64,000 nt of DNA from Triatoma infestans (taxonomy: Eukaryota > Arthropoda > Insecta > Hemiptera > Reduviidae), in contig JAAEAF010002813.1 in the NCBI GenBank assembly GCA_011037195.1, positions 52,741 through 116,740 of the forward strand, in the 5' to 3' direction. The translations under genes were made by a program, and so were the position numbers. The notes under the pieces were generated by a model. It saw only the letters and a program-made list of their open reading frames with translations. It had not been told where the DNA came from and did no database searches. Each line of letters opens with the position of its first letter. Position 1 is the first letter of the stretch. Positions 8,101 through 62,000 of this stretch are shown piece after piece.

Positions 8101-11100
8101 AATCGCGGTGATACCGAGGACTTGCATCATTTTCTGGTTGTATGTTCTATATTGACAGAATACAGGATTAAATATTTTAATAAGAAAACTGTATCCACAC
8201 AGGAAATGTTAAAATTTTAAATGGGAAAAACTGGATTTCCTTGATCAACTATTGTAAATCTGTTTATTTTTATGGAGAGCAATTATTGAAGGAATTTAAT
8301 TATTAGGATAGTTTTAAACTTTCCCCTAGAATATTCGTAAACATGTTTATATATTATAAGAATAATTATTTAGTTTATTTACTATAATAATAGTGAGTTA
8401 ATTCAATATTTAGATTTAATTTAAGATAAGTGCACTACTCAGTGACGGTTAAATAACCGAACTTTATAAAGTGTTTGTTTGTAGAGAAGTTTATTTGTTT
8501 TGTTTGTACTTATTATAAATAAAGATATTATTATTATTTGGTAGGCGAACTGCACATATATATAATTTTTATTTGAAAAATTTATTAGAGGAAGATTCTG
8601 AGGAGACTATATATTATGTTTGGCTTAACTCCAAATCGCCAATACATCTTGAGCTGGGGGACTGAGAGAGGCACTAACGTGGATGGTAAATCATGTACTC
8701 ACATTCTGATAGCTCTTTACGTCCAACAACTATAATTAACGTATAATAATAATCTATATTGAACGAAGTTCAATGATAGAAACATTAATATGTAACACAA
8801 TGCCAAATAAATGATCAGTAAAACTTCCAATTTTTTAGCAAGGGACAAAGTGTGCGATTGTTTTACACCAGTTTGTTTATTTAGAACTCTCATTCAAATG
8901 TCTTCTTGTACATTATTTTGTGTGAGACGAAAGAATATTATGAAGTAATTGAATATTTCTCACAAGAATTTGGATGAACTGAAAGATAAAATATAGATGT
9001 TAGGTCCCAACGATATGTTATTTACTAAATGCTAATTATGTTAAATTTTACAGATTCTATATTCGTTATAAAACCACTTGGAAGAAACTTTCAGTTCATC
9101 CAAATTCTTGTGAGAAATATTCAATTGAATGAGAGTTCTAAATAAACAAACTGGTGTAAAACAATCGCACACTTTGTCCCTTGCTAAAAAATTGGAAGTT
9201 TTACTGATCATTTATTTGGCATTGTGTTACATATTAATGTTTCTATCATTGAACTTCGTTCAATATAGATTATTATTATACGTTAATTATAGTTGTTGGA
9301 CGTAAAGAGCTATCAGAATGTGAGTACATGATTTACCATCCACGTTAGTGCCTCTCTCAGTCCCCCAGCTCAAGATGTATTGGCGATTTGGAGTTAAGCC
9401 AAACATAATATATAGTCTCCTCAGAATCTTCCTCTAATAAATTTTTCAAATAAAAATTATATATATGTGCAGTTCGCCTACCAAATAATAATAATATCTT
9501 TATTTATAATAAGTACAAACAAAACAAATAAACTTCTCTACAAACAAACACTTTATAAAGTTCGGTTATTTAACCGTCACTGAGTAGTGCACTTATCTTA
9601 AATTAAATCTAAATATTGAATTAACTCACTATTATTATAGTAAATAAACTAAATAATTATTCTTATAATATATAAACATGTTTACGAATATTCTAGGGGA
9701 AAGTTTAAAACTATCCTAATAATTAAATTCCTTCAATAATTGCTCTCCATAAAAATAAACAGATTTACAATAGTTGATCAAGGAAATCCAGTTTTTCCCA
9801 TTTAAAATTTTAACATTTCCTGTGTGGATACAGTTTTCTTATTAAAATATTTAATCCTGTATTCTGTCAATATAGAACATACAACCAGAAAATGATGCAA
9901 GTCCTCGGTATCACCGCGATTACGGAGTAAACACAAACTACGTTCATATTCTTTAAATGGAGTAGTTAAGTTTCAGTACAGCACTTCTTATCTTCAAAAC
10001 CCATCTCATATTCTCAAGTGTCATATTGCTTTTCAAGTAACATCCTTCATTTTTTTTTGGTTTGGCCGGCTTCGAATTCTCATTCATCGTCAGAATAAGG
10101 GTATCAATCAATTTGTGTAGAGAGATGACTTCAACTTAATATCAACCGGTGAATATTCAATCAATGAGATGCATGGCAAAGTTGAAGTCATCTCTCTAAA
10201 TATCAATTTGAATAAAATCAATGTCTAAAATAAGATCAGACATATCTAAAATCAATTTGAATTTTGAGAATTCAAAACCGGTCAGAACTAAAAAAATGAT
10301 GCATGCTACGACAGTTAAAATCATAGAAAATATTTGCATTTATCTTTAACAAATTGTAGCAATTGTTGGCCGTTAGAAATGATCAGATGGATCTCTTAGT
10401 TGGCTGATCGGCCAGGGGGTATCAGAAAAACTACTTTCACCGGTGTTCCTTCTCAACCTTTCTCTGGTAGTACACTCATAGATCACAGTCATAATTGAAC
10501 ATGTAGTAATTAATAGAGCATACAAATTTTCCGATTCTAAGATAGCCCCTGAAGAAGACAAACAATGTTTGTCGAAACGTCGGGCCATTAATAAAAAACA
10601 CTTAAAAAACTTTTTAGTGTTTTTCTTATGATACCCCCAAGCACATCAGCCAACTAAGAGATACATCTGATCATTTATCTTTAAATAAATATTTTGTCTA
10701 TTTTTGTTCAATATATATTGATTTTTTTTTTTTTTTTTACCTGCAAATAAAGTATTTTATACAAATCTGATGTATTGTGTTATAGAAAGCATCACTGATT
10801 CGTAGCACTCAAAAAATCCATCTTGAAATTATTTTATTGCCAATTTAATCATTTTATTCAACTCTTGCAGATAGCCAATCAGCTAGACATTACATGTGTG
10901 CCCATACTCTTGTTAATTTGTAATGTTTTCACAAATATAATTCATTTTCTAATACAAATATAGTTGGCCATCTAAGCATGACATTTTTTTATTGTCTCAT
11001 GACAGAATTACCTAAATTGTGTGCTAATTGTAAGAAAAGAAACTTTATTTTTCAGAAGAGCACGTTCAAGTTAGAAAAATTTCGGAGTTGCCTATAGGAG

Positions 11101-11534
11101 ACAATTCTAAAATGTTACAAGAATGGGCACAGATAGTGTCAACACCCACACTTACGAGCAGAACTTCCAGAAATAGATCATTTTCAGCAGAGTCAAGAGA
11201 ATTAAATAATAGCACAATAAATCTCTATAATGAACCAGCAGATTCTTCTACCCCAATCGCAGTTACAAAGCCATCGCTTATACGTCGTCAGTTGATAAAA
11301 GGACAAACTAATATGGTCAATCGTACAGCTCAAAATAAGTCACAACCTGAACATCCGTTCAAAAGATTTAAAACTATGCCGTTTAATGAGATAAACCCAG
11401 TTGCTGATAACCGAATAAAAAAACAATCATGTAAGCCTGTACAAAATAATCCATTTCAAGTTGATTCTGATACATCAGTAGTTGATTCTCTTCTTGATGG
11501 TATCGATACAAATTCTCTTTTTGAAGAATTTTAA
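2178..11534 (+). CDS. HROB: HROB homologue (homologous recombination OB-fold protein), 7 exons
   Basis: Proposed exons are 2178-2213, 3166-3382, 3533-3618, 3703-3783, 3865-4093, 4167-4343 and 11056-11534, all with GT/AG borders. They total 1305 nt and read through without a stop to TAA at 11532, giving 434 residues. Three blocks match the family: FPGPAGLLP in exon 3, an OB-fold region across exons 5-6 (KVPFLAVIINSI, then GSVLVLKNVGV and RRHVLNITANNL), and an acidic C-terminus (SLLDGIDTNSLFEEF). Vertebrate HROB recruits and stimulates the MCM8-MCM9 helicase in replication-coupled homologous recombination, and its OB domain and C-terminus look alike. The protein is shorter than the mammalian one (about 650 residues). 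The first two exons are the least certain: the start (MFQVEDDFDFDD) and the acceptor at 3164-3165 were chosen because they keep frame. A polyadenylation signal AATAAA lies at 11652. The donor of exon 4 (GTTAAT) is weak. Confidence 0.8.
3865..4343 (+). CDS. HROB: HROB exons 5-6, OB-fold core
   Basis: These two exons (3865-4093 and 4167-4343) are separated by a 73-nt intron that contains a poly(A) run. They code for the most conserved part of the protein, about residues 141-275, and carry the alternating hydrophobic pattern of an OB fold. The family signature is seen as KDITG, then LHREVWEKFNAEMTPGSV, then LKNVGVIS, then LNITANNLTAIYS. This is the main basis for calling the gene HROB. Confidence 0.82.
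4344..5830. other. HROB intron 6, first part: LINE-tail-like ORF and repeat
   Basis: No host exon was seen. On the minus strand, 4659-4886 stays open for 75 codons (RMNEKGWAEKLLNAIRAEKE, later GRIMWRNSWKRADGRRLRR). It is basic and resembles the C-terminal tail of some non-LTR reverse transcriptases, but too weakly to assign. From about 5350 to 5800 lies a diverged plus-strand copy of the 1 kb dispersed repeat. Confidence 0.35.
5835..8537 (+). mobile_element. Broken jockey-type non-LTR retrotransposon (ORF2 reverse transcriptase to 3' tail)
   Basis: A degenerate LINE lies in the sense orientation inside HROB intron 6. The linker before the RT can be followed from about 5835. The RT blocks run from 6196 to 7276 in several frames broken by stops and frameshifts. 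They include SIIFPIHKKGN, NYRGISFNNAIGKI, AFFVDLSSAFDNVNRGAL, ASGVKQGCVLSP and the catalytic box MAYADDIVLL at about 7150-7180. The C-terminal region continues at 7429-7853 (MCYGAQVWGG). The 3' end is TTATAAATAAAGATATTATTATTATT-like and stops near 8537 in a short ATT repeat. The element is 5'-truncated, since no endonuclease domain is seen, and it cannot code for a working protein. Confidence 0.8.
7982..8897 (+). repeat. Left arm of 916-bp inverted repeat
   Basis: This arm is the reverse complement of 9125-10040. The arms have equal length, and positions checked at both ends and in the middle sum to 18022, so there is no net gap between them. No mismatch was noticed. It contains the last ~560 bp of the LINE plus ~360 bp of non-LINE sequence beyond the LINE tail, so it was copied as a block after the LINE had inserted. 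Confidence 0.9.
8898..9124. repeat. Spacer of the inverted repeat with an inner 39-bp inverted pair
   Basis: This is the 227-bp centre between the two 916-bp arms. Inside it, 8947-8985 is repeated in inverse orientation at 9088-9126, which overlaps the right arm by two bases. The left side therefore carries about 49 extra bases (8898-8946) between the long and the short inverted blocks. That pattern fits a template-switch or foldback origin with a deletion on one side. Confidence 0.8.
9125..10040 (-). repeat. Right arm of 916-bp inverted repeat
   Basis: This is the reverse complement of 7982-8897, including the 3' end of the LINE in minus orientation. It ends at 10040 in the sequence TTTTCAAGTAA, after which similarity stops abruptly. 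Confidence 0.9.
10064..10290. repeat. Degenerate hammerhead-bearing inverted pair
   Basis: On the minus strand, 10064-10098 reads CTGACGA, a GAAT/ATTC stem, then GAAGCCGGC. This resembles the hammerhead repeats elsewhere in the window, with GAAA changed to GAAG and no clear cleavage triplet. A related plus-strand copy at about 10257-10290 keeps the GAATTTTGAGAATTC stem and ACCGGTC but has lost CTGA. Between them are two inverted copies of a 'GAAGTCATCTCTCTA' type block near 10117-10195. Confidence 0.5.
10376..10676 (+). repeat. Small element with ~57-bp inverted ends carrying a hammerhead
   Basis: The block at about 10376-10435 (AAATGATCAGATGGATCTCT onward) returns inverted at about 10618-10676 with few changes. 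Both arms include TTAGTTGGCTGAT and GGGGGTATCA. A complete hammerhead motif lies inside at 10545-10585. The total length is about 300 bp and no ORF is present. It sits in HROB intron 6. Confidence 0.6.
10545..10585 (+). ncRNA. Hammerhead ribozyme motif, family A copy 1
   Basis: In order: GCCC (stem I, 5' side), CTGAAGA, one extra A, GACAAAC-AAT-GTTTGTC (a perfect 7-bp stem II), GAAA, C-GU (ACGU, self-complementary stem III), cleavage triplet GTC, then GGGC (stem I, 3' side). All conserved core bases CUGANGA and GAAA are present. Stem I here is GCCC/GGGC, whereas the related copy at 42219 has GTTC/GAAC, so the pairing covaries. Stem III is too short to work alone, so cleavage would need a dimer, as known for hammerheads in Penelope-like elements. 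Confidence 0.72.
10680..11055. other. AT-rich end of HROB intron 6
   Basis: AT-rich sequence with a T-run at about 10722-10738. Nothing else recognised before the acceptor TTTTTCAG at 11055. Confidence 0.4.
11056..11534 (+). CDS. HROB: HROB exon 7 (C-terminal, last exon)
   Basis: The acceptor AG at 11054-11055 joins in phase 1 to exon 6 across a 6.7-kb intron. The exon codes for about 158 residues, mostly a polar, serine/asparagine-rich stretch without obvious fold. The acidic-hydrophobic end SLLDGIDTNSLFEEF resembles the C-terminus of vertebrate HROB. Stop TAA at 11532-11534. Confidence 0.78.
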
Positions 11535-12364: not shown

Positions 12365-15300
12365 TTAGAGAGCTTTTATTCGTACATGTTCTATCTGTAG
12401 TGCAGATCTTTCATCATCCCAAGTATTTCTCCAGTGGTGTCGATCTTGCCAAAAATTGAGCAATGCCTGAAATTTTGACAGTTGACGTGTTTTGTATTTA
12501 ATTTAACCATAATCATCATTTATTTTAATTATTTCGCAATAATAAATTAATTATTAAGGTGAACTTTACCTTCACAGCCAAATTTCTCCATGGTTTTTCA
12601 TGACCTGCGCTCGTACTTTCATCTGGGAAGTCTCTCATTCCGCCGACGGATATACCAAGCGATAGGTAAAACTGAAATTATGTCATATTATGATGAGTTA
12701 ATTTCTGATGCTTTGATAAAAAGAGAAAAACACATCTGACATCCCTGCTTTGTACATTTTTCCTTTTCTTTGTGAATTTCTTGGAGCAGCATAAAATTTC
12801 ATTCATCTGTCATTCAATTTTTTTTTTAATCATTCGACATTTAAATATCAATATATGTACAAAATCTAAATATATTAATATGAGCGCAGGTAGTATGTAA
12901 GTTGGCAAATGAACGAAATTTTATATTGCAACATCGAGGGCAGGGGAATTACAAGAATAATATTGGAAATGAGAGTGTGTGATGGTGAATAAGAGTTTGC
13001 TTCTTTTTCTTTCTTTTTTTTTCAATGTGACAAATTAATTTAATTGGCCGTATCCTCTCATTTACGAAAATTAGAATAAGGGATCAAATTTGATCCGTGA
13101 ATTTTAAATAGTGAGAATAATTTTTACTTTTCGCTTTTTTAAAAACTGAAAAGTTGTTAAAGGATTTTCATCTTGGATAAAAAACGGATTTCCCAACTTC
13201 AATATCAACCGCTCTTAAATATGACAGTAAAATTAAAAAATAATAATAATGGGAGAAGGTTTCGATGATCAAAATCCGCAACCAATACAATGCGACTTTA
13301 TTGTATGGGTCTTTAATTGTTTCGCCGTTTCTTCATGACGATTCAACGATTTTTATTAAATGTTGTGGTGGTTGGTTCCGCAGAGCTGGAAAGCATCAGA
13401 GACATTTTCCGTGGTAGCCTGCTTTCATTTGGTGGTCATCGACCGGTTTCGGGCGTTCGCCCATCTTCAGGATGCGTTTTTTCAGACAGTGTGCCAACAC
13501 AGACTCGTACAGAGACTTCCCAAGATGGGCGAACGCCCGAAACCGGTCGATGACCACAAAATGAAGCAGGCTACCACGGAAAATGTCTCTGATTTTTATT
13601 AAACTTCGCCTTTTATTTACAGACACATACGTCTACAAACGTCTGTATTGAAATATTTTTCTAGGAACATTGATTTTTGGCTATTCCAGGAGAGCAGACT
13701 TGAGACTTCTGAACTACAGTATTATTTCAGAAATAAGTTGATCTGACAATATGTAAAATTCAGAGAAAAATTACATTTGTTTGATAAATACAAAAAAAAG
13801 TGCAAGGTTTTCTCAAAACGGCTCTAAACATCTTCCTTAACTTGGAATTCCATGCTGCACATTTAAAAACCCATCACCTTTATTTAAAACATTTTTCCCG
13901 AAAAGTTTATTTTCAGAGAGATCTGGGAAGCTGAGTGATTAAGCTTCCCTCTATAATCATTTCAGTTCAATGTCTTGTTCCATCACCAAGTGGGACATAA
14001 GGGCACTAAGTATTTAGTAAAAATTCCTACTTCCAATGAAATTTGCCTCCCAGATCTGTAGTAAGAGAATGTTTCGCAACACAGGTAATCCTAACATAAG
14101 GCCAAATTTAAGAAGGATAGCTAATGTGCAAAGTACCCCGTATTTTTCTCACCATAGAGTATTCTAATTTTCTATTAATTCCATTATTAATATTCCATAT
14201 TCAGGTTCCTTTTTATAATCGAGCTAAAAAGCAGCCAAGTTACAAGCTACATTTAAAGATTCTATTCCTCAGTTTTTAGTTTGGCTGAACCTGTAGGAAG
14301 GGTTGCCTCCAATTTCGATGGGGAAGTTAGAGCGGTTCTTTTAGCCCTAAAACAAATCCTCACTTGAGGGTAAACAAGTAGTATTATTTATTGACTCGCA
14401 GGCGGTGATAAAGGCATTAACTACCTGGGCAGAGACCGAATCGTACGACGTTATAGAATGTCATAAGACCATTAACGACCTAATCCAGAAGGGAGTAGAA
14501 GTAGTTTTACAGTGGATCCCTAGCCATTGCGGCATAAAGGGAAACGAGGAAGCGGACAGACTACCCAAGTCAGCGGCAGTTATGACCCAGCCGGAGGGAT
14601 CCATTTCATTTGAAACGGCTAAGCGACTTCTCCGGGCAAGTGTGAAAAAGAAAACGGCAGAATTACATGCGATACAGTCAGAGGGCAAGCGTTGGGCGAT
14701 CCTCCGTCAGAGCGTGTTGCCAAATAATCTGCTGCTAAGCGAAGCAGTGGCCTGCTTCCAATTATTAACCGGACATGACTACCTACAAGCACATTTATAT
14801 AAAATTGGTTAGTCGATAATCCGGATTGTGTTCTCTGCAGGGCCGGGCACATGACTGGAGATCACCTCTTCGAGTGCGAGGCCCTTGCTGATTTAAATAC
14901 ACAATCTATTGACGAGCTCTCAGCAAGAGCCAAGATATATTGGGCTGCTAGACGTCGAATGACGGAATGCCAAATATGACGTAGGGTATTGGAAAAAAAA
15001 ACAACAAAAAAAGCATTTAAAGAATAATCAAAAGTAATAACAATAGAAAAAAATAATCAAAACTAATAACAATAGAAAAAAAATAAGGCAACTTGGATTG
15101 TCATAAAGAAATAAAGAGAATAATTTTACATATTAAAATATTACCTCTTGGTCAAATGGAGCAATCCTTGTGCCAGATTTCCAAGTAATTGCTGTATTTT
15201 CATCAAATTCAACAAGTTCCGCTAGGGTTGTTCCTGGATTCATAATACTTTCTTCATGCTGCCCATCAACAAGGAACTGTAGATTATCTGTAAGATTTTT

Positions 15301-24900: not shown

Positions 24901-27900
24901 GCGCTTGGAGGCTTCTCAAATGCACAGCCGGCCTCCGGACAGTGTTCTCTCGTTACAGACAGCACTGTCCATCACCGAACAGTGAGCTGCAGAGTTTCTA
25001 GGAAGAGAAAATCTAAGAGCAGCACTGCTGGGCTTGAACTTGGGACCTCAATGTGGGAGCTCAGTGCGCTACACTAAGCTAATCCCTTCTTTCTTCTTAT
25101 TATTAATAATATTAAGTCCATGCTAGCGACTAGGACTCTTGACTTGGGTGGCGAGCGATCAGGGTTCGACATCCATGGAGATTCGAACGGTATGGATCTA
25201 TATCTGAGTAAAAGTGGAGAGCTATATTTGACAGTAACGGCGGTCGTGATGGTCAGAGGTAAAGAGGAGTTGGAAACGAGAAAAGTACTAAGCTCTCTTA
25301 CCTCTCCAAGTCGTGGCGCCGTCTGGAAAGCTTTGGGGGCCTTCATTAACTGTTGTGTCAAAGGTTTGGTTTTTGGTTAGTTTTAAATAAAAGGATCATT
25401 CAATAAATCTCCTTTTTGGTAGAATAGCATTTGCGATTTCTGGTTTTTGTGAGGTATGAAACTATTGGAATTTAATTCCCGGAAGCTGTTATTAGGAGTT
25501 GATCATTTCAAGAAAAGCATGATTTATAAGTCCGGAATGACCTATCACGGTTTCAATTGCATCACTTGAATCTCACATTATGCTCGTATTCAAGAAGACT
25601 TGCCGAGGCTGAAAAATGTAAAATATAAATATTGGACAGTTCATTCCATTATTCATTATAGGCTCAACTATCGTTTCAAAACAAAAAAGTAAAAAAAAAA
25701 AAATTCAAAACTAGGTTACTCTTCAAGACAAGAATTTTTTATTGCTACATAGAAAAAAACTAGTAGAGAAATGGGACAATGTATAAACATATTAGGGGAT
25801 TATGGAAAGAAAAATATAAATGATGAGATTCATTTATTATATCATAAAACTATAATCATTTAGTTTTCTACAGTTAGAAGAAAGTATAAAGCTCTAACCA
25901 GAATGTGGAAAGAAATTTTTATAAATCTCTGTTATAATTATAATTAGGAAGTTGTAATTGCATAGTATAATAAAAAAAAAAATACCTGTATTGTAGCCCT
26001 GCATAATCATATCCCTTTTCTTTACAAAAGTGAATACATGTTGCAGGTGTCAATGAATTTCGAAATTCTTTCATTTCATCTGGCATTAGTCTTGCTTCAC
26101 GCGATCTTTCTTTATAGCATCCCAAATATTTTGCGCTTCTTCCTCCTAGAAATTTATAAATATATCTTTTGAAAAAATTAAAGTAAATATAAGACACTCA
26201 ATTTTTTTTTTTTTAAATCGCGTTAAGAAAAATTGAAAACACAAATTGCCAAATACATACCACCGGTTGAATAAACGCTTAGCCTAAGACCACCACCACA
26301 AATTTCTTTACTATTCCCATCACATTCCATATCACAGTCTAATTCATTGGCGGCCGATTTAGGAGAAGGCCTCTCATCTGAGCAGAAACATTCGAACCTG
26401 AAATCAACAAAAATCTGGTGTGAAATATACACTCGAGTTCTCTTCCTGCTGTTATCACAATTACGTATACAATTATAATAGAGTGGGGAAATAAACAACC
26501 TAATCATTTGCCTGTCGCGTTCAGAAAAAAATTGTCCAAATACCATCCGATATATCTCTAACTTGTTTTGTCTAGTTATAGTCCACATCGTGGTATAAAT
26601 TATGCATGGAAAGATGGGTATTCTAAATCTTAGTTTCCGAAGTTTAACTTAATATTTACATCTATTTCAGAGTATAATTAGTATTTGAAGTTTAGTTCAA
26701 AAAATTAAAGTTGTCACTATTTTTAGTCTCTCCTATTATATTAAGATCATGTCAAATTTTCTGTATCGAGTTCAACGGAAATATATGTTTTGAATTGCCT
26801 TAAATGGTGGGCAAGTTTTAATCGAATGATGTTGTTTCCTCGCTATGTGTGTATATGTGGTGTGTTTTTGCTGGTGTGAACAAAATATCTCAAAAATGAA
26901 CAACTCAAACTTGACATTCCCTTTAGATATCATTACCGTTTAAAGGGAACTGGACTAGTCCTCTATCAGACATCTTGACATGGGAAAATGTTTTAAAACC
27001 ATAAAAAGTAAAAAAAAAACCTATGGTGCAACAGCCCATGAAGGGCCAAGGCTTGCCAGACGGCGATTTGAATAGGGGGGCGTGTCATAAGCAACCGCAG
27101 TTCCCACGCCGTTTAGTTCCGGCCTTCGCTACCTAAGGCGCTATTAATTGTAGCTTCCCACTTTTTATCACGATGCTGGGTCAACACCGACATTGCCCTC
27201 AGGGAATCGAAGAAAATGGTATGTATGTTGACAGTATACGAAGTTTAGTGAAAATTGTTTTTTTTTTTAATTTAAGGCGCGTCAACATGTTTTGGTCCCA
27301 GGTTTCTCAGTGCACTGCCGGCCACCGGACAGTGTTCTCTCGTTACAGACAACACTATCCATCACTGTCCAAGTGAACTGTAGAGGATCCTAGAAGAATA
27401 AAATCTACGGGCAGTAGTATAGCTGGACTCGAACTCGAGATCTCCGCGTGGGAGTCCAGTACGCTAACCACTTAGCTATTCCAATATCAATATTGTAACC
27501 GATGAAGGTCTCCAGAGGTGCGATTATTGTTAGTGAAAATTATTAGAGTTATTTTCGAGACAATCGCGAAAAATTGAAAAAAACTTCAGTGAAGTTGGAT
27601 TTCCGGTTGATGGATTTTGCCCGAAACGGAGTACTAAATTTGAGGTATTTGCGATATTTTGTTCATACACACACACACACACACACAAACAGATCATTCA
27701 CCAAAAAAATCGTCCTCAGGGGTGGGACCTCTATGTATTTGTGGTGAAAATTCAACTTTGAAAATTTGAACGTGATCGCAATACTTCCTTTTACGAGGAG
27801 TGAGAGAAGGTAAAAAATTGTGAGATTTTAAAGAACATGCATTGTAATTAGTTATCTGGCTAATATTTTGGCAATCTATCCTTAGGCGGAACTAGACTAT

Positions 27901-30900
27901 CTACTTCTTCAAGGAACTAGGAGTCTCACCAAGGGCCTGTTGATATATTAGTTGTTTACTACTTCCTTGGGTTTAGCATGTTGGCGTACCCACAAGAGAC
28001 AACTTTGACTCTAACATATGCATTCTTACATCATTCACATTTATGACATTGTACAGGGTACCGACTACTAAATTCTATACAAAACATAGCCACAACTGGT
28101 CTTTTAGTTCGCAAGGGAATGGCTTTATAATCAGCCCCTTCTGCACAGGTAACATCTACACGTATTTTAAGATCTACCCAGAAAGTACTAAGACTCCTTT
28201 TACGAGGAGTGAGAGAAAGTAAAAAATTGTGAGATTTTAAAGAACATGCATTGTATGTTTCAACATCGAATTAGTTAATTCGTACGTTTATTAAAATAAA
28301 AAGGAAAAAAAATATAGAATTCTTAAATAGAATGTTTAAAAATAGAATTTAGTTAATCGGCAATATAACATTTTTTTTATTTTGTTTTTACATTTAAATA
28401 ATGATATTAGAGACCTTCTTTCTGTTTCTATTTCAAGGCCATTTGTTTTTATAATTAGATAAAAAAACAAAAATATTAAATAAACATTTCAGAGAGAAAT
28501 TGGAACATTATTTTTTTCTAACTGCTGTTAAATGGAAGCATTACGATTATGACAAATTTTTGAAATCAAATTTTTACCGAAAATACATGTTCTGTGTTTT
28601 TATGAATATGAAAAGCATGTTTATAGTGGCAGGTTTGTTGTGAATTCAAACAAAATATCTCATATTAATGTTGATTTTTGTAAAAAATTCTGTGAAGTGA
28701 ATGTTGAATTAATTCAGTTGAAGATTTGTGGGACAGTGAAACTTCTAAATTCTTGTTTTTATTTGTTTAATTTTTCTCAAAATGTTTTGATCCGTGGAGT
28801 CATCATCATCAGCCAGTTATGAGTCAGTGGTAATTATTAGTGACTCATATTCACTCACTGAATATTTCACTTTAGTCAAAAGAAACTCCCATAGCTTCCC
28901 CAAGAGTTTATGGTTTAAATCCATAAATCTGAAACGCGACTTAAATGATTTTTTTTTTCGATATCACTTCTAATGAATTTCTATAATCTTCGCTTAGTAT
29001 TAAATACATATTTTTGTAACCTCCTATTTTTATTTGAACCTTCATTGTAGGAAAATTGATTCTTGGAGAGTTAAGGAGGTTATAAAGCAAAGTTAGGCTT
29101 TCGTTTAAAGCGCCATCTGAGTCCAGTTCATGGTCCAGTCATCTCTATCACTTTAAGAACTACTAAATGCATAGTTAGAATACTAATAGAAAAAAGTCGG
29201 TAAGTGTGATGTAAGAAATATGTTACTGAGTTTTTATTTAAAATTGGAAGATATAGTTTATAGAAGAATTTAGGAGTCCCTTACGTTAACCTCAATATTA
29301 AACTGCCAATATAGTTTTTTGTGGGGAGGATTGATAGTGAAATTACGGTTTAGCCGGTAGCTATTTTTATGTGTAAAATGTTTACAGCTTCAAAGGTTTT
29401 TACTGAATTCTACTCATGGAGTAAGAGAAAGTGAAAAATGAACATCTCAGAAAGCTGAAGCTTGGCATTTCATTTAGGTTCTATCCAGGGAGACGACAAT
29501 AAGGTTCTGGTCAAAAATAGGTCGGTCAGTTGTACCACTTTTACTGAATATATTTTTCAGTTTTGAAGATTTTCTTTAAATTTCTTATACCAACTATGCA
29601 TATAAAAAGCTCTACAACTTTTATTTATTTAGACGATTGCATCATCTAAATAATCTTAATTAGAATTAAATATGTTGCAGTAAATTTGAAAAAGTCAGTT
29701 GAACGGAAGTGCATCAGTATTGAACAGTTTTTTGAGTGTTCTGGGCGTTTTTCTCCATGGAAACAGCAACGGATTTCATATAATAATTGGTATACTAACA
29801 CAGACCTATCAATTTTGTTTGAAACTTTACTTTCCAAGGAAGTTCATTTAAAAAATTGTTTTATTAAGTTTAGATTCTCCCATTGATCTAATTTTGAAGA
29901 CAAGTAAACATTTAGTAAAAACGATAAGATTGAAGAAAATTAGTATATTATAACTATGTAAATTGCTGTAAGAGAAGGTCGTGTGATAATTTCATGCTAG
30001 TTTTTTTATATATATAGAAACAAGAACTCCTGGAATAACATAGTGTTAATGGGTACCTGTATGGAACCTAATGTATATTAATTTGGGGAATTCCCAGTTT
30101 TAAATAAACAAAAGCTATAAAGGAATCTTCCATTCCTAAATCATATTTTTGCACATATTTTTTCCCAATTAACTTAATATAAAGTACGAATTATCTTTAC
30201 TCACCTGTATTCCAGGCCTGCATAAGCAAAACCTTTTCCAGCGCAATGTGAAATACATTTATTTGGTGTTAGCGTATTACGAAAATTTACATGGTCCCCT
30301 TTTAGTAGTCTATCACTTGGTGATTTCTCTCTGAAGCATCCAATATAAGTGGAACTATAAATACCTAGGAGGAAAAACAGAAATATTTCAACAATTAGCA
30401 TGTAAATTATTCAAAAGCTTATTAAGTTCAGTTAATGTATATAGTTAACTGTAATAATAATTATTATAACTTAGTAAATTTTGTTTGAAGCTACTTTCTC
30501 TCATGTTAAGAAATACTTAAAAATAGCTTAACGAGACTATAATAATTAATTTTCGGAATTCTTTACTTTAGAAATTTAAATATTTATTAAATTCCAAGAT
30601 TTTTAGTTGATTTCACTGATTCAAACTAATTTTTGGGATCGATCAAACTCTTACTACCGTAAGTGCGAATTTTTTTTTTTGCAATTTTCTTGAAAATGCA
30701 GCCAACGATTTTTCATTAAGTTTGCCATACGAAATGCCATTTTTATTTGAAACATTTTTTCAAGGAACTTTTTTTTTTCCAGAGGAATTGCAATTATAAT
30801 CTTTTCTCGTCTTTATAATATTACGATCCATTAAAGACATTGGTATAGCTCGGAGTTTAAAGTAAAGTGGTTAATCGAACGGACGTCCGTCTTAATTGAA

Positions 30901-41380: not shown

Positions 41381-41834
41381 GGGGAATGATAGTTTAAATC
41401 TATTTGCATTTGCAGGTTTTTTCATTTTTTTAAGCACAATGTTTACGTTTATTATTTTTTTCTGAAAAAAAAAAGAAGAAATTAAATTATTATTTTCAAA
41501 TTATTTAATATTACTAAAAGGGATTAAAATATTATGTTTGTTATATTATTGTTTATAGTAGCAATTATTTCATTTTTCCCTTGCACTAATATTGTTTCTT
41601 GTAATTTTTGTAATCTTATTCAATTTTATTGTTAGTTCACTGAGTTTTGTGTCTTTCTTATCATCTATTTACAGAATTACTCTTTAAGTTCTGTACATTA
41701 CTTATTATAACTTTCATTCATTAATTATTCTACGAATCTGAAAACAAAAATTAGTTGGCTTCTCGACCAGTTGATGGTAAAAAAAAACAAAACCAAAAAA
41801 AATAAATTTTGTTATTGTTTTTTAATAATTGACA

Positions 41835-41875
41835 GTTCGCCGTTTCGACAAACTTTGTTTGTCTTCTTCAGGAAC
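41835..41875 (-). ncRNA. Hammerhead motif, family A copy 2 (cleavage triplet lost)
   Basis: Minus strand: GTTC, CTGAAGA, A, GACAAAC-AAA-GTTTGTC, GAAAC, GGC, GAAC. It is identical in layout to the facing copy, but the triplet is GGC instead of GTC, so self-cleavage is not expected. Confidence 0.6.
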
Positions 41876-42218
41876 AATATAAAACAAAATTAAAGAAAAA
41901 ACAAAATTATAACATGAAACACAAACAAAAAACCAAATACATAGGTGAGATTACAGTAGTAATGCTAAGTCTGCTAATGCTAATGTACTAATATTAACAT
42001 TACTACTAATCAGTAGTAATGCTAATGTACTACTGTAATCTCACCTATGTATTTGGTTTTTTGTTTGTGTTTCATGTTATAATTTTGTTTTTTCTTTAAT
42101 TTTGTTTTATATTGTTCGTAGTAATGCTAATGTACTACTGTAATCTCACCTATGTATTTGGTTTTTTGTTTGTGTTTCATGTTATAATTTTGTTTTTTCT
42201 TTAATTTTGTTTTATATT

Positions 42219-42259
42219 GTTCCTGAAGAAGACAAACAAAGTTTGTCGAAACGTCGAAC
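42219..42259 (+). ncRNA. Hammerhead ribozyme motif, family A copy 3
   Basis: GTTC (stem I), CTGAAGA, extra A, GACAAAC-AAA-GTTTGTC (stem II), GAAAC-GTC with ACGU as palindromic stem III, then GAAC (stem I). Complete core. Confidence 0.72.
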
Positions 42260-42300
42260 TGTCAATTATTAAAAAACAATTACAAAATTTTTTACACAAA

Positions 42301-43514
42301 AACGCAATAACTTGAATTGTAATTGATGTACAGAAACTAACTTTAGTTTATCTAATGCTCCATCTCATAAAGTTTTTTTCCTTGTTTAGTCCACTTCAAT
42401 ATGCGCACCTCTTGTGGCACGTACGATATGTAATCGGTATTCAACTTCCATCCACAGTCGCCGTAACATGTGTTCATCAACAGTGGCAATGGCATCGGTG
42501 ATTCTGTTCTTCAGATCGTTGATATCATTGACAGGAGTACGATAAACTTTGTCTTTAACGTAACCCCAGAGAAAAAAGTCTAAGGGTGTCATGTCAGGGG
42601 ACCTAGGAGGCCAGGAAATGGGGCCACCTCTTCCAATCCAACGTTGCGGAAAGGTGACGTCCAGGACCTCTCTCACGTTAAGAGCCCAATGTGGTGGTGC
42701 ACCATCTTGCTGAAAAAAGACTGTTGGTTGTCGATCAGCTAATTGAGGTATCAGATACATCTGCAGCATATCAAGGTAATTGGTACCATTAACTGTGTTT
42801 TCTGCAATAAAGAATGGTCCAATAATGCGATCAATCATGACACAACACCACACATTAACTTTGGGGCTATCACGCACCACTTCTCTCAAAGCATGTGGGT
42901 TTACTGACCCCCAGATGCGGACATTGTGTGTATTGACTCTTCCACACACATGAAAAGTCGATTCATCGGAGAAAGCCACATTATTAAGAAAATTGTTATC
43001 CTCTTCCACACGTGTCAGAATTTCCACAGCAAATTGCATGCGCTTCGGTCTATCATTTGGCTCAAGTGCCTGCAGTAATTGCAGACGATATGGGTACAAC
43101 TGAAGACGTTTCCGGAGTACCCTGTGCACTGTTGTGCGAGGGATTTGCAGTTCCTGTGAGGCCCTTCGAATCGACTTCTGTGGCGAACGCTGGAAAGCTA
43201 CACGTATGCGTTCGAGGTCTGCATCACTCGTTCCGGGCCGGCCAGTATGAGGCTTTACATCAACACAGCCTGTCTCCATGAAGTTGTTGTACCACTTTCT
43301 TATTGATGGTCGAGAGGGTGGATTCTTGTTAAATCGTGTCCTGAAGTTTCTCTGTGTCTGAATGTCAGATCTGGTTTCAATAAACCACTTCACACATTGT
43401 GCCTTTTCTTGTGGGGACGCCATTATTCTTATACTTGTTTCCTGTTATCTGAAACACGAGGGAAAAAAAACTTTATGAGATGGAGCATTAGATAAACTAA
43501 AGTTATTTTCTGTA
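42301..43514 (-). mobile_element. Mariner-like (DD41D) DNA transposon, truncated ends
   Basis: The transposase gene 43423-42386 is flanked by inverted repeats. One is CTTTATGAGATGGAGCATTA at about 43468-43487, and its complement is at about 42354-42373. The 3' side extends to about 42301 in sequence that matches the end of a second copy (43780-43858), but both outermost ends of this copy are missing. The left break abuts the hammerhead repeat. The right break (about 43514) runs straight into a second, inverted copy. Confidence 0.8.
42386..43423 (-). CDS. Mariner-like DD41D transposase, intact 345-residue ORF
   Basis: A single uninterrupted frame codes for a cut-and-paste transposase. The N-terminal helix-turn-helix region has KWYNNFMETGCVDVKPHTGR and ASQELQIPRTTVHRVLRKRL. 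The catalytic domain has VAFSDESTFHVCG (first Asp), VFFQQDGAPPHW (second Asp) and SPDMTPLDFFLWGYVKDKVY (third Asp). Between the second Asp and the Asp of PLD there are 41 residues, which fits the DD41D group of Tc1/mariner elements. Length is normal for the family, and the unbroken frame suggests recent activity. Mobility in place is unlikely because the terminal repeats are truncated. It lies between the first and second WSC gene and is not part of either. Confidence 0.88.
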   Translation of the reverse strand: MASPQEKAQCVKWFIETRSDIQTQRNFRTRFNKNPPSRPSIRKWYNNFMETGCVDVKPHTGRPGTSDADLERIRVAFQRSPQKSIRRASQELQIPRTTVHRVLRKRLQLYPYRLQLLQALEPNDRPKRMQFAVEILTRVEEDNNFLNNVAFSDESTFHVCGRVNTHNVRIWGSVNPHALREVVRDSPKVNVWCCVMIDRIIGPFFIAENTVNGTNYLDMLQMYLIPQLADRQPTVFFQQDGAPPHWALNVREVLDVTFPQRWIGRGGPISWPPRSPDMTPLDFFLWGYVKDKVYRTPVNDINDLKNRITDAIATVDEHMLRRLWMEVEYRLHIVRATRGAHIEVD

Positions 43515-43880
43515 AGAGGTGGCCCCATTTCCTGGCCTCCTAGGTCCCCTGACAAGACACCCTTAGACTTTTTTCTCTGGGGTTACGTTAAAGACAAAGT
43601 CTATCGTACTCCTGTCAATGATATCAACGATCTGAAGAACAGAATCACCGATGCCATTGCCACTGTTGATGAACACATGTTACGGCGAGTGTGGATGGAA
43701 GTTGAATACCGATTAGATATCGTACGTGCCACAAGAGGTGCGCATGTTGAAGTGGACTAAACAAGGAAAAAAACTTTATGAGATGGAGCATTAGATAAGC
43801 TAAAGTTAGTTTCTGTACATCAATTACAATTCAAGTTATTGCGTTGTGAAGTTGTAAAGTACTTTTGGGACACCCTATAG
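43515..43880 (+). mobile_element. Second, partial mariner-like copy, opposite orientation
   Basis: The plus strand codes for the last ~82 residues of the same transposase (RGGPISWPPRSPDKTPLDFF to HVEVD, 43516-43760), followed by the inner repeat and the full outer end GACACCCTATAG. It is the only complete 3' end of this family in the window. The PDM of the first copy is PDK here. Confidence 0.8.
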
Positions 43881-49675: not shown

Positions 49676-50046
49676 ACCTACTCTAGTCCATATTGCCTCC
49701 TATGATACCACATAATTCTAAAAACTTTATCTAAAAAATCTTGCTCTAGTAAATTCTCCAGTGTACCTCGGAGTCATGGACAATTCCAACACATGACCTC
49801 ATCATATTGATATTTACAGCATTACTTTCAATAAATTGAAATATCATCTGGCATACTGATTTCAGTTATAATCCTGAGATATTTACTACATAAAGTAAAT
49901 AAATTCAGCTAATGCTAAATCCATCATAATAATAAAAACAGTATTTCTTTTTAAGATGGTATTCAAATCGTCAGGCCTTTAAATTACAATGAGATGTTTG
50001 TACGGCGATGGCCAAAGGAGTTTTTAAAGAAAAAAATGTCTTTGTT

Positions 50047-50087
50047 GCTCTACGTTTCGGGTATCATTGGTGCCCTTCTTCAGGAGC
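50047..50087 (-). ncRNA. Hammerhead ribozyme motif, family C copy 1
   Basis: Minus strand: GCTC, CTGAAGA, A, GGGCACC-AAT-GATACCC (imperfect stem II), GAAA, C-GUA (triplet GTA, palindromic ACGU), GAGC. Core complete, with an allowed NUH triplet different from the GUC of families A and B. Confidence 0.65.
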
Positions 50088-50232
50088 ATTTAAGGGTTGG
50101 AGAGGAGTGAATGTTGAGAACGTTGAGACTGAGACATTGATGATTATTGAATCAATAAAAAAAAAATTAAAAATAAGATTTATTGCTTCAGCCTCATCTT
50201 TCTCAACGTTCACTCCTCTCTTACCCTAAAGA

Positions 50233-50273
50233 GCTCCTGAAGAAGAGCACCAATGGTACCTGAAACGTAGAGC
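50233..50273 (+). ncRNA. Hammerhead ribozyme motif, family C copy 2
   Basis: GCTC, CTGAAGA, A, GAGCACC-AAT-GGTACCT, GAAA, C-GTA, GAGC. Stem II has two mismatches and one G-U pair, so it is less stable than its partner. Confidence 0.6.
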
Positions 50274-50761
50274 AACAAAGACATTTTTTTCTTTAAGAAC
50301 TCCTCCGACCTTTGCCGTACAAACATCTCATTTTATTTCTTTTTATATTCTCTAAAATTGTCCAATTGGACATTGTTTAATATTATGCATTTATTTAATT
50401 CTTAATTTTATCTTGCCACTTAATGTTATAAATTTTTATAGACATCAATTTTAAATAAATTATTTTTCTATAGCACATAATTATGCTACAGCCTTTCTAT
50501 ATTATTTAACTTGTTCATAACATGTAACTGGGTACATCCAGTAAAATAAATAACTTAACTCACTTGATTTGCAGGCCTGCATAGGCATATCCTTCACCAG
50601 CACAATGTGAAATACATTTATTTAATGTTAGCGCAATATGAAAATATACATCGACCCATTTCAGTAGTCTATATCATTTATTGAGTTTTCTTTGAAGCAG
50701 CCAATATAACTGGAACTATATATACCTAGGAAGAAATACAGAAATATTTTAAACAATTTTT

Positions 50762-50915
50762 TTTCTGGTCATTGGAGCCCGAAGCCTTTTCTCAGTGCAC
50801 TGCCAGCTCCGGACACTGTCCATCTCTAGGAAGAGAAACTCTAAGGGGAGCACGCTGATTCGAACCCTGGACCTCCGCGTGTTGTCCATTATGCTAAACC
50901 ACTGAGCTGATGTAA
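50762..50915 (-). mobile_element. tRNA-derived SINE, copy 4 (shortened)
   Basis: The minus-strand head has CAGCTCAGTGGTTTAGCATA (box A) and CCAGGGTTCGAATCAG (box B). About 60 bp of the body is deleted relative to copies 1-3. Confidence 0.7.
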
Positions 50916-50927: not shown

Positions 50928-51075
50928 GGTGGTTGGTTCCGCAGAGCTGGAAAGCATTAGAGACATTTTCCGTGGTAGCCTGTTTCATTTTGTGGTCATC
51001 GACCGGTTTCAGGCGTTCGCCTATCTTCAGGATGCGTTTTGTCATACAGTTTGATAACACAGACACACCGAGCAA
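50928..51075 (-). repeat. Family B hammerhead repeat, single copy
   Basis: The same outer block (GTTCCGCAGAGCTGGAAAGC) and GAGACATTTTCCGTGGTAGC as at 13.4 kb, with a complete hammerhead inside. Confidence 0.7.
50997..51034 (-). ncRNA. Hammerhead ribozyme motif, family B copy 2
   Basis: CATC, CTGAAGA, U, AGGC-GAAC-GCCT, GAAA, CCGGTC, GATG. Compared with 13437-13474 the closing pair of stem II changed from G-C to A-U on both sides, a compensatory change. Confidence 0.72.
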
Positions 51076-52869: not shown

Positions 52870-52915
52870 AATTAATTGTAAATGCAGTAAACAGAAATAA
52901 AATTATGAGATGCAT

Positions 52916-55830: not shown

Positions 55831-55839
55831 ATAACATAA

Positions 55840-56465: not shown

Positions 56466-56469
56466 ATAA

Positions 56470-57335: not shown

Positions 57336-58830
57336 TAATCCTACTAATAACAGTTGATATATTTAGAGAGTTTATAGTCTACTTTTGTTACATTGTAGTG
57401 TTGAACTTTTAACTATACAATTGGTCTTTTCTTTTCTACAAGTTTTGTATAAAATTTGACATTGTGTAGAAATCTTTGTAAAAACCATTTACACAAAGAA
57501 AACATTTTGATCTCTTACGAATTCCTTGATGCCGCTTTCCTGAAAATCAGATTTAATTTACGTACTACATAATGTAAAAGGTAACACAGCAGCAGGATCG
57601 AACCTATTAAGATTTTTTTAAAAATATTACTAATTTCTTGGAAATGTTGCTTATTTATTTCAATAGAATCTACGGCTCTGATGTTTTTCCTGATAGTTTT
57701 AAAGATCCTATAATTTTCCCAGATCATAACAACTAACCAAACAGCAACGACATTATGTTTTTCTCTAATATGCTATATTATTTTATTATACGATTTCTAA
57801 ATCATATTAATATTAATTAGAATTAAATATATCAACAAAATTCCGAGTTTAATGAAAATCAGCAGACCAGAAGTGCCTTCTTACTAAACACTATTTTTCA
57901 GATTTTATCAGAAACGGCCCCAAAGATTTTCTTTAAACTTACTATGTCACCAACAAATATGAGGAGCTACAACATTTCTCCGGGAAAGTTCATTTAAGGT
58001 TTGTGGGAAGGGTATAATTTGTTTTCCTCTCAAGTGCTATTTTAGATGATTATACAATTAAATACATTGACAAAATTTGTAAGCGTCTGTCTCTACCGGA
58101 CCACAGATTGCCCAAGAAGGTAGCGATCGAGGTGATAAGTGAAAGATCTTCTTGGATTAAGCGTTAGTTCATCCAGTCTCGGAACTTACTCTTGTAAAAA
58201 AGGGAAAATAATCGATGTACTTGATGTGTCGATTATGGCTGGAAATTGTGTGTTTGACACTATGTGATGAAGTACTGTACATTTCTTCTATTGATATTTT
58301 GTTAACAGCATTAATAAAAGTTTTGGTTAATGGTGATTATTGTTTGCTTTTATTTAATCACATTCTTGTCAATTTAATGGCTGTTTGGACGAGCCATATT
58401 TGGCAGTGGACAGCTTTTTCCTCTATCAAGATCTATGACACGTGGATTCCTTTTATATAGGTACCTACTTTATAAAGCGAGCACAGAATCGGGTAACGGC
58501 CACTATATCACATAAACTTTATTTTAGCGAAATGTGGTAGTTGTTTAAGCTCAGAGGCGAACTTTTATACCTAAATTTCAGTGAGATGATGGCTCGAAAG
58601 AGATCTCGGAACAAAAAAAAACTGACGGATTTCATTAGATTGGTTACACTAACCATGAGTAGAGAGATTTATCACTATTAACGAGAACGTTTTCCCGAGA
58701 AAATTCATATAACTTTTTTAGGGGGAGTGGAGAGTGATGATTTCCTCCAAAAAAAGAAGTTGTCTCATTAGGTTTGGATTCTCCAACTGATTTATAAATG
58801 AAGAAAAGCATATATTGAGTAAAAAAAATA
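57336..58830. other. Intergenic, repeat fragments
   Basis: Plus-strand 1 kb repeat pieces lie at about 57735-58060 and 58590 onward. The part 58080-58580 has no recognised element or gene. An 81-codon open frame at 58215-58460 has no family signature and is not called. Confidence 0.35.
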
Positions 58831-59090
58831 GTTTAAAGAAACTTGGTAAATTATAACTATGTAGACTGCTGTAAGTTGTGTGAGTGTTTCACACCAGATT
58901 TTTTAATTATATTTATTATTTTGAAAACTGATTAAAGTAATTCGATGGATTTCCGTCGCCTCTTAGCCTTGGAAGATATATATTGAAGTAATAAAACAAA
59001 GAACTTCTCCATGATTCTGTAATTCTGTACTTTTACTTTCTTTCTATTTATTTATGAATTTTTTTTTTTTTGAGACAATACACTGAAATT

Positions 59091-62000
59091 TTAAACATTT
59101 GTAGAATATACGAGAATTCTCCAGTCGTTGCCACAATTTTTTGTACTATCACCTGCACATGGTTTTTCACACTCATTTTCAGCCACTTTTAGATCATTAT
59201 GTGGCCTTGTATTGTCACAATAACATTCATCTCTGAAAAGTTAATTTGAACAGTTTAAACATCTAGGTAAAAGGTAAAGTAAAACAAACAATACATTAAT
59301 TTAAAAACAAAATAAAACATAAATTACTTAGATTCAACTCCTGCATATTTATAACCAAGCTGTAAACAAATATTAAAACATAATTTTGGCGTACACGTAT
59401 CACTCAATATCATCTGTATGGCCGGAAGTATACGTTCTTCTTTATCCTTGAAACAGCCTATGAGTTTGCCATCTTCTGAATAATCTGTAGGAAAAATATT
59501 ATTTCATAATCACTTGGCAATTTGTTGGACGTTTGTAGAGGGAATGGTTATAGATTAGATTAGTAGAGTTTGTCTGGAAATATAGCTGTTGCAACAAGCT
59601 GTTGTTAGGATACAATAAATTCAAATCTTCAACTCAACACTTGTAGAATACGCAAGAATTCTTCAGCCTCCGCCACAATTTTTCCTATGGTCACATGGTC
59701 CGTATTGTACAGTGATTTTCAACCTTTCCTAGATCATTATTTAGTCTACTATTGTTACAATGACAATGTTTTCCAAAAAATTAATTTGAACAGTTTAAAC
59801 GACCAGGTAAATGGTAAACTTCTGTAGGCCTTATTTTGGGATCAGATTGTTCATGTTATTTTGCAGGGACGCCAGCTTCCCCACAGGAATGTAAATATTA
59901 AGAAAATTAAATAAATAAAAAAAATTACCAGAAATTTGAGTGTGGTAAATGCCACTTGTGCAAAGGCCACCACAATTTAATCTATTGTTGTTCGCACACC
60001 CAATGTCACATTCAAAATCTAATATTTTGTTTTCTTGTTTAACGTTGTCTCCACAGAAACATTGGTTTCTAAAACAAGAATGTTTAAAAAAATATTATAG
60101 CTTTTATTTTACTTAGCTTTCTATTACTGCATCTCTCAAATTTCAATGGAAGTTACTTCAAATTTGGAATTTTAGTTTTTACTATGAAGTTGGTATCGTA
60201 TTACATTAACAGTGATATAAAACAGACTTGCACAGAGCAAATACAGTTGACACACTATGTACAGTTATTATATACAGTTGATACACAAGGTATATGCACT
60301 GTGCAAGTCTATGTTATTATACATTTCAGCAAAATAATCCTGATGATGGGCAAATGCCCGAAACCGGTCGATGACCACAAAATGACCACGGAAAATGTCT
60401 CTGATGCTTTCCACTCTGCGAAACCAACCACCACAACAAATGAAAAAGTAGTTTTTATATGTTGTAAAGAATTTTTTTTTCCAAGCAAAATAAAACAGTT
60501 ACCGTAAATAATATTTTTATAAATTAATAATTATCTAAAACTGGTTTAGTATATGGATTAATAGTATGGAATACAGTTTAACAGTTCTCTCTCTGTAAAT
60601 AATTTTAAAGATTTCGGCAACAGATGCTATCTTCAGAGACATTTTCCGTGGTAGCCTGCTTCATTTTGTGGTCATCGACCGGTTTTGGGCGTTCGCTCAT
60701 CTTCAGGATGCGTTTTTCAGACAGTGAGCCAACACAGACTCGTATAGAGTAACTTAGTTTCACACTAACTGAGGTATATTTTTAAAAATACTAAACTCTT
60801 AAACTAGGTAAAGGGATGTGGCCAGATGGGTGGGAAAACACGTGTTTGGGTTGTTAAAGGGTAAATTCTTTTCTTACAGTGGACGCAACACGCGGGGGTC
60901 TAATCTTTAAACTCTGTTGTTGGAGGGAGACTTACTTCACAGTTAACTAACCAAAATATTAAGAATATACAAAATAAAAAATGAGATACACAAAATAAAT
61001 CTAAATAAAATTAAAATTAAACAACGATTAAACTAACATTTAAAATTCATTCATTCGTTTAAAATTGAACGATTTTTTATATAATTAAACTAAGTTTTCC
61101 CAGTTCCAGAGAATTAAGAAATTCCAGTCATTCTTTCACTTTTTCACGCAACCCTCACATCCTCGCAAGCATGTATACCTAATTATGTTTTCTTATATAA
61201 TCAAGTTTTTTATTATGCATCCCACACACCATGTCACATCATCACTCACATACATCATCCAAATACGCACTTTTTTTTTTTTTCTTATATATATATTATA
61301 TATATTATATATATATAAACTAGTAAATTTATATGTACATAGTAGATTTAAAACTAACCAAAACTTAAAATCTATTTTTCAGTGTGTCATTTTTTAACAA
61401 GATAAAAAACAAGAAACTCAGCAGGCCCTAGAGAAGACAGAACTTACAAAGAATGGAGAACATCATGCTCAAAAAAATATATTCTTCAGCGTTCACAATT
61501 TTCAACCCTTTGGGGAAAAATAACTGTCGTCATGTAGTCAGAGAATGAGTGAGCCACAATGAGAAAAACAAATTTTTATTAACCTTTAAAACAATTCTTT
61601 TTTCCTGTGAATCCCCAATTTCGAAAATTCGACATATTGCAATATTTTCTCTTACAACGATCAGTGAAAAAAAATCTATACTTAGAGAATAGTGATTTAC
61701 CCATTGCGAACTCCAGCATATCTATATCCGTTGCGATAGCAGAAGCCGGCACAAAGTTCTGGAGTTAAACGTGTAAAGGTTTCATGTCTACCATTTAAAA
61801 GTCGATTTTCACCATTGTCTAAATAACAGCCTAAGTAATTGCGCCTCACGAAATTAACATGCTTCTCTGCAACAATTAACATGGAATATATATATATATA
61901 TATATGTATAAAACAGTAGATTTTAAAAAGAACTAAACTTACCACTAGTTTCATAAACACTTAATCTGTAGGCACCACCGCAAATTTCATTTTTATCTCC

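Follow-up and report, generated by a model that had tools for sequence, protein, structure and literature searches.

Minimal hammerhead motifs in head-to-head, mixed-ended insertions, probably of Penelope-like element ends, in the genome of Triatoma infestans

Introduction

Why should small ribozyme-like motifs recur in a stretch of insect DNA as inverted pairs facing away from each other? The question is raised by a window of 64,000 nucleotides (nt) of the Triatoma infestans genome (assembly GCA_011037195.1, contig JAAEAF010002813.1, positions 52,741 to 116,740, forward strand; coordinates below are those of the window unless a fetched locus, L with a number, is named). Hammerhead motifs of several repeat families (A, B, and C) are present in it, and an earlier note, made from the letters alone, had taken them for ribozymes or recent descendants of several non-coding retroelement families. 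Its ribozyme-like motif is confirmed and its interpretation holds in part; it missed that the motifs lie largely in head-to-head inverted pairs inside single insertions, mostly with the minus copy left, the plus copy right, and the tails outward in the window. The motif itself is not new, because minimal hammerheads have already been reported from Penelope-like elements (PLEs); the part that a specialist may not expect is that the two ends of a pair are almost always one long and one short. We think it quite probable that the head-to-head loci are single insertions made from two complementary DNAs (cDNAs) of sense RNA, and that the minimal hammerheads sit in the pseudo-long terminal repeat (pseudo-LTR) ends of PLEs.

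Results

Head-to-head pairs have one long and one short end

Two distinct 3' ends are found for family C in the window, a long one, ...ACCAACCACCACAACA (minus arm of locus C1; C2, C4, C5), and a short one, ...GTCTCTGA (plus arm of C1; C3). In family C an ATG precedes the predicted cut by 24 nt, and the two ends follow that ATG by about 68 and 103 nt; long and short ends are spaced about 35–38 nt apart in each family.

Further loci were taken from the 941-Mb assembly that contains the window. For family C, 100 listed places without mismatch, first by contig number, gave 94 loci; 89 of these were fetched and five left out. Eleven A1 pairs and eight pairs of family D, the PLE-linked family described below, were picked for close opposite cores, with end classes then unseen, and are therefore uninformative on the frequency of pairs; the other seven D pairs came from loci with a GIY-YIG match. 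In the scan for D pairs 24 loci were covered, and 15 had both orientations. For L162 and the window loci A1 and B, end classes were assigned by eye.

Family C tails within 600 nt of each other in the 89 loci were head-to-head (-+) in 44 cases, tail-to-tail (+-) in two, and direct (++) in one; neighbours within 4 kb among 100 listed places each, counted by eye, were head-to-head 23:0 in A1 and 20:0 in D. The tails of these C loci were short (66), long (61), or other (9). All 41 classifiable C pairs were mixed (25 + 16), with no long/long and no short/short pair, and three of the 44 could not be classified; independent ends would give mixed pairs half of the time, and 41 of 41 then has p = 4e-13. 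The ten classifiable A1 pairs were likewise mixed, including L153, whose short arm stops at 112 and was counted as short; the eleventh has a truncated arm. Among 15 D pairs, 13 of the 14 classifiable ones were mixed, one (L134) was long/long, and one was unclassifiable. The single fetched B pair, L162, is mixed by reading, as are C1, A1, and B in the window, where A2 and C2 are not classifiable. Over all families 74 pairs were examined and 69 could be classified; of the latter 68 are mixed, one is long/long, and none is short/short.

Target duplications and comparison of arms

Head-to-head inserts are often flanked by target-site duplications of 9–16 nt. Duplications of at least 10 nt were present at 19 of 31 family C pairs, ten of 11 A1 pairs, and ten of 15 D pairs, and at one of 2736 random places. 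All three classifiable window loci have them, of 12–13 nt (C1, 13; A1, 13; B, 12); in the control, 1500 pairs of random boundaries, no duplication reached 10 nt.

Within a pair the two arms diverge less than arms that were re-paired (in neither C nor A1 did any of 5000 permutations give so low a value), and because of this likeness they probably share one RNA or one source. Their inner lengths are unrelated. In L118 the short-ended arm reaches residue 684 of the PLE frame and the long-ended arm residue 764, the two abutting at 1389/1393; the frame is entered by the short-ended arm only in L119; in L136 the long-ended arm reaches residue 369 and the short-ended arm 758 (junction 2551/2550). The longer upstream part of C pairs belongs to the short-ended arm in L038, L082, and L100, and to the long-ended arm in L041, L091, and L094. 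No arm class was always the longer among the C and D pairs compared.

Families in the genome and the link to a PLE

Repeat counts in the assembly are lower bounds. Family C was found at at least 20,660 places (10,401 + 10,259; up to two mismatches to a 43-nt core), A1 and B at at least 1,296 and 1,269 (up to three mismatches), and D at at least 245 (up to two mismatches); each control gave 0. A genome search for GIY-YIG gave at least 38 matches, with 150 of 1,157 candidates scored, and of the 23 GIY-YIG loci examined, some of them overlapping, 20 contained the family D hammerhead.

Locus L129 holds an open frame of 809 residues between family D hammerheads (1243-, 1627+, 4641+; extra A, ACGU), in the order minus, plus, frame, plus. 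The frame matches RVT_1 with 29.3 bits, just under the cut-off of 29.6, and GIY-YIG with 28.1 bits, over the cut-off of 22.6; it has at least 110 relatives among the matches listed, the few named ones being mostly from insects. Family D flanks a PLE frame, and the minimal hammerhead with an extra base is therefore tied to a PLE in this genome. Of the features by which PLEs are recognized, a frame with reverse transcriptase and GIY-YIG was found for family D only. Pseudo-LTRs both direct and inverted are seen in the order of L129 and in the head-to-head neighbours of A1, C, and D; the optional 30–40-nt tail at the reverse transcriptase end has its counterpart in the offset of about 35 nt between short and long ends; short target-site duplications are present, and absent in part of the pairs. 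The earlier assignment to the minimal kind known from PLEs, with a self-complementary stem III and in several repeat families, is thus supported; its description of the families as non-coding fits A, B, and C as seen, while the sister family D surrounds a PLE frame.

The hammerhead motif

Seven sites had been described as sharing CUGANGA, a hairpin, GAAA, a self-complementary segment, and a cleavage triplet, and the motif is found at all seven (10545, 13437, 42219, 50047, 50233, 50997, 60336; minus strand at 13437, 50047, and 50997). Of the claimed dozen copies, nine have the CTGANGA core; adding a core that is truncated (13516-13552+) and another that has decayed (56608-56648-) brings the total to eleven, near the number given. 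A strict descriptor (stem I with at least 3/4 pairs, stem II with at most one mismatch, palindromic stem III) matched six times on both strands of the window, with CTGA at 10549+, 42223+, 60340+, 51030-, 50083-, and 13470-; 300 order-1 Markov windows gave four matches in total (about 0.013 per window). The minimal type I core (CUGANGA, GAA, A15.1-U16.1, NUH, stems I and II) is intact in six of the nine copies, the defective ones being 50237+ (stem II 5/7 pairs), 41871- (stem III ACGG), and 60706- (GAA to AAA, stem II 3/4).

The extra base noted between CUGANGA and stem II is present in 9/9 copies, as A in families A and B and as T in C. Stem I is paired 4/4 in eight of the nine copies and 3/4 at 60336, as noted before. 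The covariation claimed for it is borne out, with 16 of 16 pairs over four families; of the 24 possible assignments of 3' strands to families, the real one alone gives 16 pairs, and two others give 15. The change of G-C to A-U in stem II at 50997 is real. In families A and B (five sequences) 92.7% of cells are paired, and the covariation score was reached by none of 500 shuffles and the number of pairs changed on both sides by 10 of 500; further pair types were no better than in shuffles (302 of 500 reach the value). Support from covariation in A and B is modest.

Rfam gave no hammerhead in the window at the gathering cut-off, as expected because there is no closed stem III, and none among 14 matches up to E=10. 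The MIR6136 and MIR7996/MIR408 matches (E<=10) fall on the C1 and B palindromes and were rejected. Our own models, each built on one set of families, matched the other set only weakly: the A+B model found C1 with E=0.02 and C4 with E=0.26, the family C model found B- with E=0.04 and A2+ with E=0.11, and in each list other matches score alike. None of the public viral (2) and prokaryote (24) loci with the core pattern had 4/4 stem I pairs, and the exact family C string had no match in viral contigs. One viral contig holds, at L002:9803-9833 (minus), CTGACGA-T, a short stem II, and GAAACGTC, without stem I.

Folding and predicted activity

A transcript of a head-to-head locus contains one sense ribozyme and its antisense copy. 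As free monomers, six of seven copies tested are predicted to form stems I and II with p 0.47–0.84, and 50237+ with p 0.004. In palindrome transcripts of A2, B, and C1 the hammerhead fold has a predicted cost of 53–63 kcal/mol relative to the free ensemble; it is also disfavoured in the own loci of C4 (predicted accessibility p 0.0075) and C2 (p 0.0002), and A1, with a predicted p of about 0.9, is the sole accessible copy among the seven tested in their own locus. Ribozyme activity in the palindromic loci tested is doubtful on these models, because the ribozyme is paired away in the transcripts; and since such palindromes conceal the ribozymes that they carry, the number of motifs in these repeats is a poor guide to activity.

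Activity as dimers had been suggested. Cis-dimers are unavailable at these palindromic loci, but a full element, L129 for example, has two direct copies. Predicted RNA dimers gain 5–9 kcal/mol, and stem III-stem III pairing occurred in none of nine predicted minimum-energy dimers.

Fifteen of 123 family C arms are truncated within or after the ribozyme, and five of these begin at +26 to +28, the cut lying at +24; this count, post hoc and without control, is only suggestive of some 5' ends having arisen by ribozyme cleavage. For partner arms not picked for identity (27 of 37 used; ten with indels or truncation left out) the rate was 0.061 in the ribozyme and 0.040 in the tail. The excess lies in the 5' part of the ribozyme, where arms are cut short; the counts, given without a statistic, are 17/702 from stem II onward and 41/1026 in the tail.

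Loci of the window

The A1 locus (10350-10671), read as a head-to-head insertion of PLE ends, has a long-ended left (minus) arm without a hammerhead and a short-ended right (plus) arm with the family A1 minimal hammerhead (10545-10585, plus; GCCC/GGGC, ACGU, GUC). Its inverted arms are 10377-10430/10623-10676, the left one extending, by eye, to the long site; the target duplication, CATTTATCTTTAA, is at 10337-10349 and 10672-10684. To its left, 10061-10097 (minus; E=0.046 with the family C model) and about 10260-10310 (plus) appear by eye to be decayed, head-to-head relatives of family C. Further left lies a perfect 919-nt inverted repeat (7982-8900/9122-10040) with a 221-nt spacer holding further inverted sequence, explicable as a recent inverted duplication or as a hairpin introduced in assembly.

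Locus C1 (13361-13590) consists of a long-ended minus arm with a family C minimal hammerhead (13437-13474, minus; CATC/GATG, ACCGGU) and a short-ended plus arm with a 5'-truncated one that has lost CTGA (13516-13552, plus); its duplication, GATTTTTATTAAA, is at 13348 and 13591. The head-to-head arms of A2 (41801-42293), of unassignable end classes, carry a hammerhead with broken stem III (41835-41875, minus; ACGG) and a minimal one (42219-42259, plus; GUUC/GAAC). A perfect 105-nt tandem in the A2 arm (42013-42222, plus) has its right end at the base preceding CUGA. The right arm adjoins an inserted mariner-like element: beside it, 42386-43444 holds an open 352-residue frame, with helix-turn-helix matches in Pfam, which resembles a mariner transposase, and 43479-43760 an inverted fragment.

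Locus B (49954-50333) has a long-ended minus arm and a short-ended plus arm, the ends placed by eye against L162; inverted arms at 49982-50148/50172-50338; and the duplication TATTTCTTTTTA at 49942-49953 and 50334-50345. Its hammerheads are a minimal one (50047-50087, minus; GCUC/GAGC, GUA) and one with stem II 5/7 paired (50233-50273, plus). Copy C4 (50922-51145, minus) is long-ended, shares an upstream end repeat of about 110 nt with C3, and contains a hammerhead with a compensated stem II (50997-51034, minus; AGGC/GCCT); no inverted partner and no convincing duplication were found for it. Beside it, 50750-50915 (minus) resembles by eye the tRNA-like head of a short interspersed nuclear element, with an 82% relative at 30189-30396.

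In C2 (60217-60438) a long-ended plus arm with a hammerhead of stem I 3/4 paired (60336-60373, plus) faces a left inverted end-repeat arm without one (69% identity). C3 (60633-60815, minus) is short-ended (GTCTCTGA), with its hammerhead at 60673-60710 (GAA to AAA), and like C4 has no inverted partner that was found in the window; C5 (56528-56698, minus) is a decayed, long-ended family C copy. Outside these loci, 27474-27590 is U4-like, under the Rfam cut-off (33.9 against 46 bits) and perhaps a pseudogene, and several minus-strand exon-like frames at about 18976-62818 resemble, by eye, WSC repeats and glucan-binding protein.

Discussion

Origin of the mixed-ended pairs

The motif, its orientation, the two fixed ends, the mixed ends of the sampled pairs, the duplications, the unequal inner lengths, and the linkage of family D to a PLE frame are what the sequences show. 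We propose that the enzyme of the element would cut the two strands of an AT-rich target, with about 12 nt between the cuts. Each target 3' end would then serve as primer, and reverse transcription would begin at either of two adjacent positions immediately 3' of the ribozyme, so that one cDNA would come from the long site and the other from the short site some 35 nt further in. Each would extend toward the 5' end of the RNA and stop at its own point; the two would be joined head to head, and gap filling would leave the target duplication. The action of the enzyme, the priming on two strands, and the setting of both starts by a dimeric enzyme or RNA complex are inferred from the products. Families A, B, and C would have moved in the same way as D, and the copies in the window would descend from ribozymes working in the parent RNA.

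A cDNA that primes itself and copies back, with a protein-blocked tail halting the copy about 35 nt short, would likewise join two arms head to head. A closely similar self-priming, from palindromes at inverted junctions, has been proposed for rotifer Penelope elements, in the portion of PMC3846280 available, and fold-back synthesis agrees with the self-complementary centre of about eight of 31 C pairs and with the likeness of paired arms. It requires, however, that the copied arm be nested in its template. The short-ended arms of L118 and L119 hold frame sequence that the long-ended arms lack, the long-ended arms hold tail missing from the short-ended ones, and the longer upstream part falls on either class in the six C pairs named above. 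Later deletions could blur nesting in single loci; fold-back cannot produce arms of unrelated inner length and is difficult to maintain as a general source, and as the explanation overall we consider it unlikely. Two separately started cDNAs on both target strands are favoured because they fit the non-nested arms and the published extension of both strands.

Small circular-RNA elements of the retrozyme type, non-autonomous and moved by working hammerheads, share with these families small size, no frame seen, thousands of copies, and type I hammerheads, and PMC7229834 points to PLEs as the likely helpers of retrozymes in animals. The retrozymes of that study are, however, tandem repeats with canonical loop-loop hammerheads, and the motifs here are minimal; tandem direct repeats of 150–450 bp, by which metazoan retrozymes are recognized, are not what was found, one of 47 neighbouring C tail pairs in the 89 loci being direct. 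This origin is improbable, more so than fold-back. Less probable again are DNA transposons of the miniature inverted-repeat kind that happen to carry hammerheads: short elements, inverted arms, and a narrow class of duplication length would suit them, but their terminal inverted repeats do not agree with ends that differ in length by about 35 nt in 68 of 69 pairs, with arms of varying inner length, or with family D arms that carry inverted portions of a PLE frame. Look-alikes arising by chance or low complexity could be imagined from the AT-rich genome, the defects in three of nine copies, and the weak model scores across families; six strict matches against about 0.013 per Markov window, and the family C places against a control of 0, leave them next to no likelihood, and the copy counts rule them out.

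Several observations weigh against the proposal of two cDNAs in one insertion. Only a single tail was found in 43 of the 89 C loci, and one-sided insertions or lost arms must therefore be common; 12 of 31 C pairs are without a duplication of at least 10 nt. By a rank test the likeness of paired arms reaches significance in A1 (p=0.001) and not in C (p=0.17), and self-complementary centres in about eight of 31 C pairs are what fold-back would also give. The D pair L134 (3410 and 6193) has two long ends, no target duplication, and identical inverted flanks. PLE proteins matched nothing in the C and A1 loci fetched or in the window, and this search brought up no helper for A, B, or C. A stem-loop around the short start was dropped as a candidate signal, since 5–41 of 100 shuffles reach it in the four families. 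Lastly, in the assay of an Anolis PLE described below the choice of start showed no difference between strands (PMC11167929, sections available), which does not itself predict one of each. As a separate observation, the palindrome of L134 runs beyond the element into host DNA.

Going one step further, and with less assurance than we attach to the two cDNAs, we lean toward PLE insertion as an obligate two-start reaction, in which one complex, probably a dimer of the enzyme bound to a single RNA or a pair of RNAs, would use one start per strand, the two lying about 35 nt apart, each complete insertion having one long and one short end. If so, the "optional tail" of PLEs would record how the two sites were assigned to the strands, and head-to-head ends standing alone would be the normal truncated product of PLE insertion. 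The rotifer study discussed below did not settle how inverted PLE ends arise, and the mixed-end rule makes that question directly testable. Copies number in the tens of thousands, and many can be read as frozen integration products. Ribozymes are known parts of PLEs and their presence is ordinary; it is the surrounding insertion record that matters.

Comparison with known systems

L1 twin priming places two primers on one RNA and yields an inverted junction; it is occasional and its second start variable, whereas here nearly every classifiable pair is affected and the starts are fixed. The one-long-one-short rule was not found in the literature searched, including the available portions of PMC11167929 and PMC3846280.

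Minimal type I hammerheads of PLEs (Cervera and de la Pena 2014; Lunse et al. 2017) are treated in a review (PMC7761336), in the part available to us, as having a very short stem III and thousands of dispersed copies, some in pseudo-LTRs, and they are thought to cleave as dimers. The motifs described here are the same in type, stem III, dispersal, and location, and differ in being families of one genome.

For Penelope of Adineta vaga the accessible sections of PMC3846280 describe an inverted pseudo-LTR beside direct ones, an optional 31-bp tail on one inverted pseudo-LTR, duplications of 8–10 bp, and the head-to-head arrangement as the commonest. The inverted pseudo-LTR, optional tail, short duplications, and head-to-head order are alike here; there they were explained by self-priming, probably on an antisense template. 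In those sections the word hammerhead is absent and one long and one short end are not stated as a rule.

The closest biochemical counterpart is PAc, a Poseidon PLE of Anolis carolinensis (PMC11167929, as far as the available sections go). Its hammerhead lies at the start of the frame, is active only with protein present, and is dispensable for insertion in vitro; a dimer is predicted by modelling. In the main text of that paper "head-to-head" does not occur, and "inverted" is used only for a blocking nucleotide. Internal starts lie 111–118 nt into the PAc frame, at an AC-rich stem-loop with two adjacent starts; the tail is of 30–40 nt, and both target strands are extended. Set beside family C, the cut is 26 nt after the start codon in PAc and 24 nt here, and the AC-rich start at 111–118 compares with the long end, itself AC-rich, at +103.

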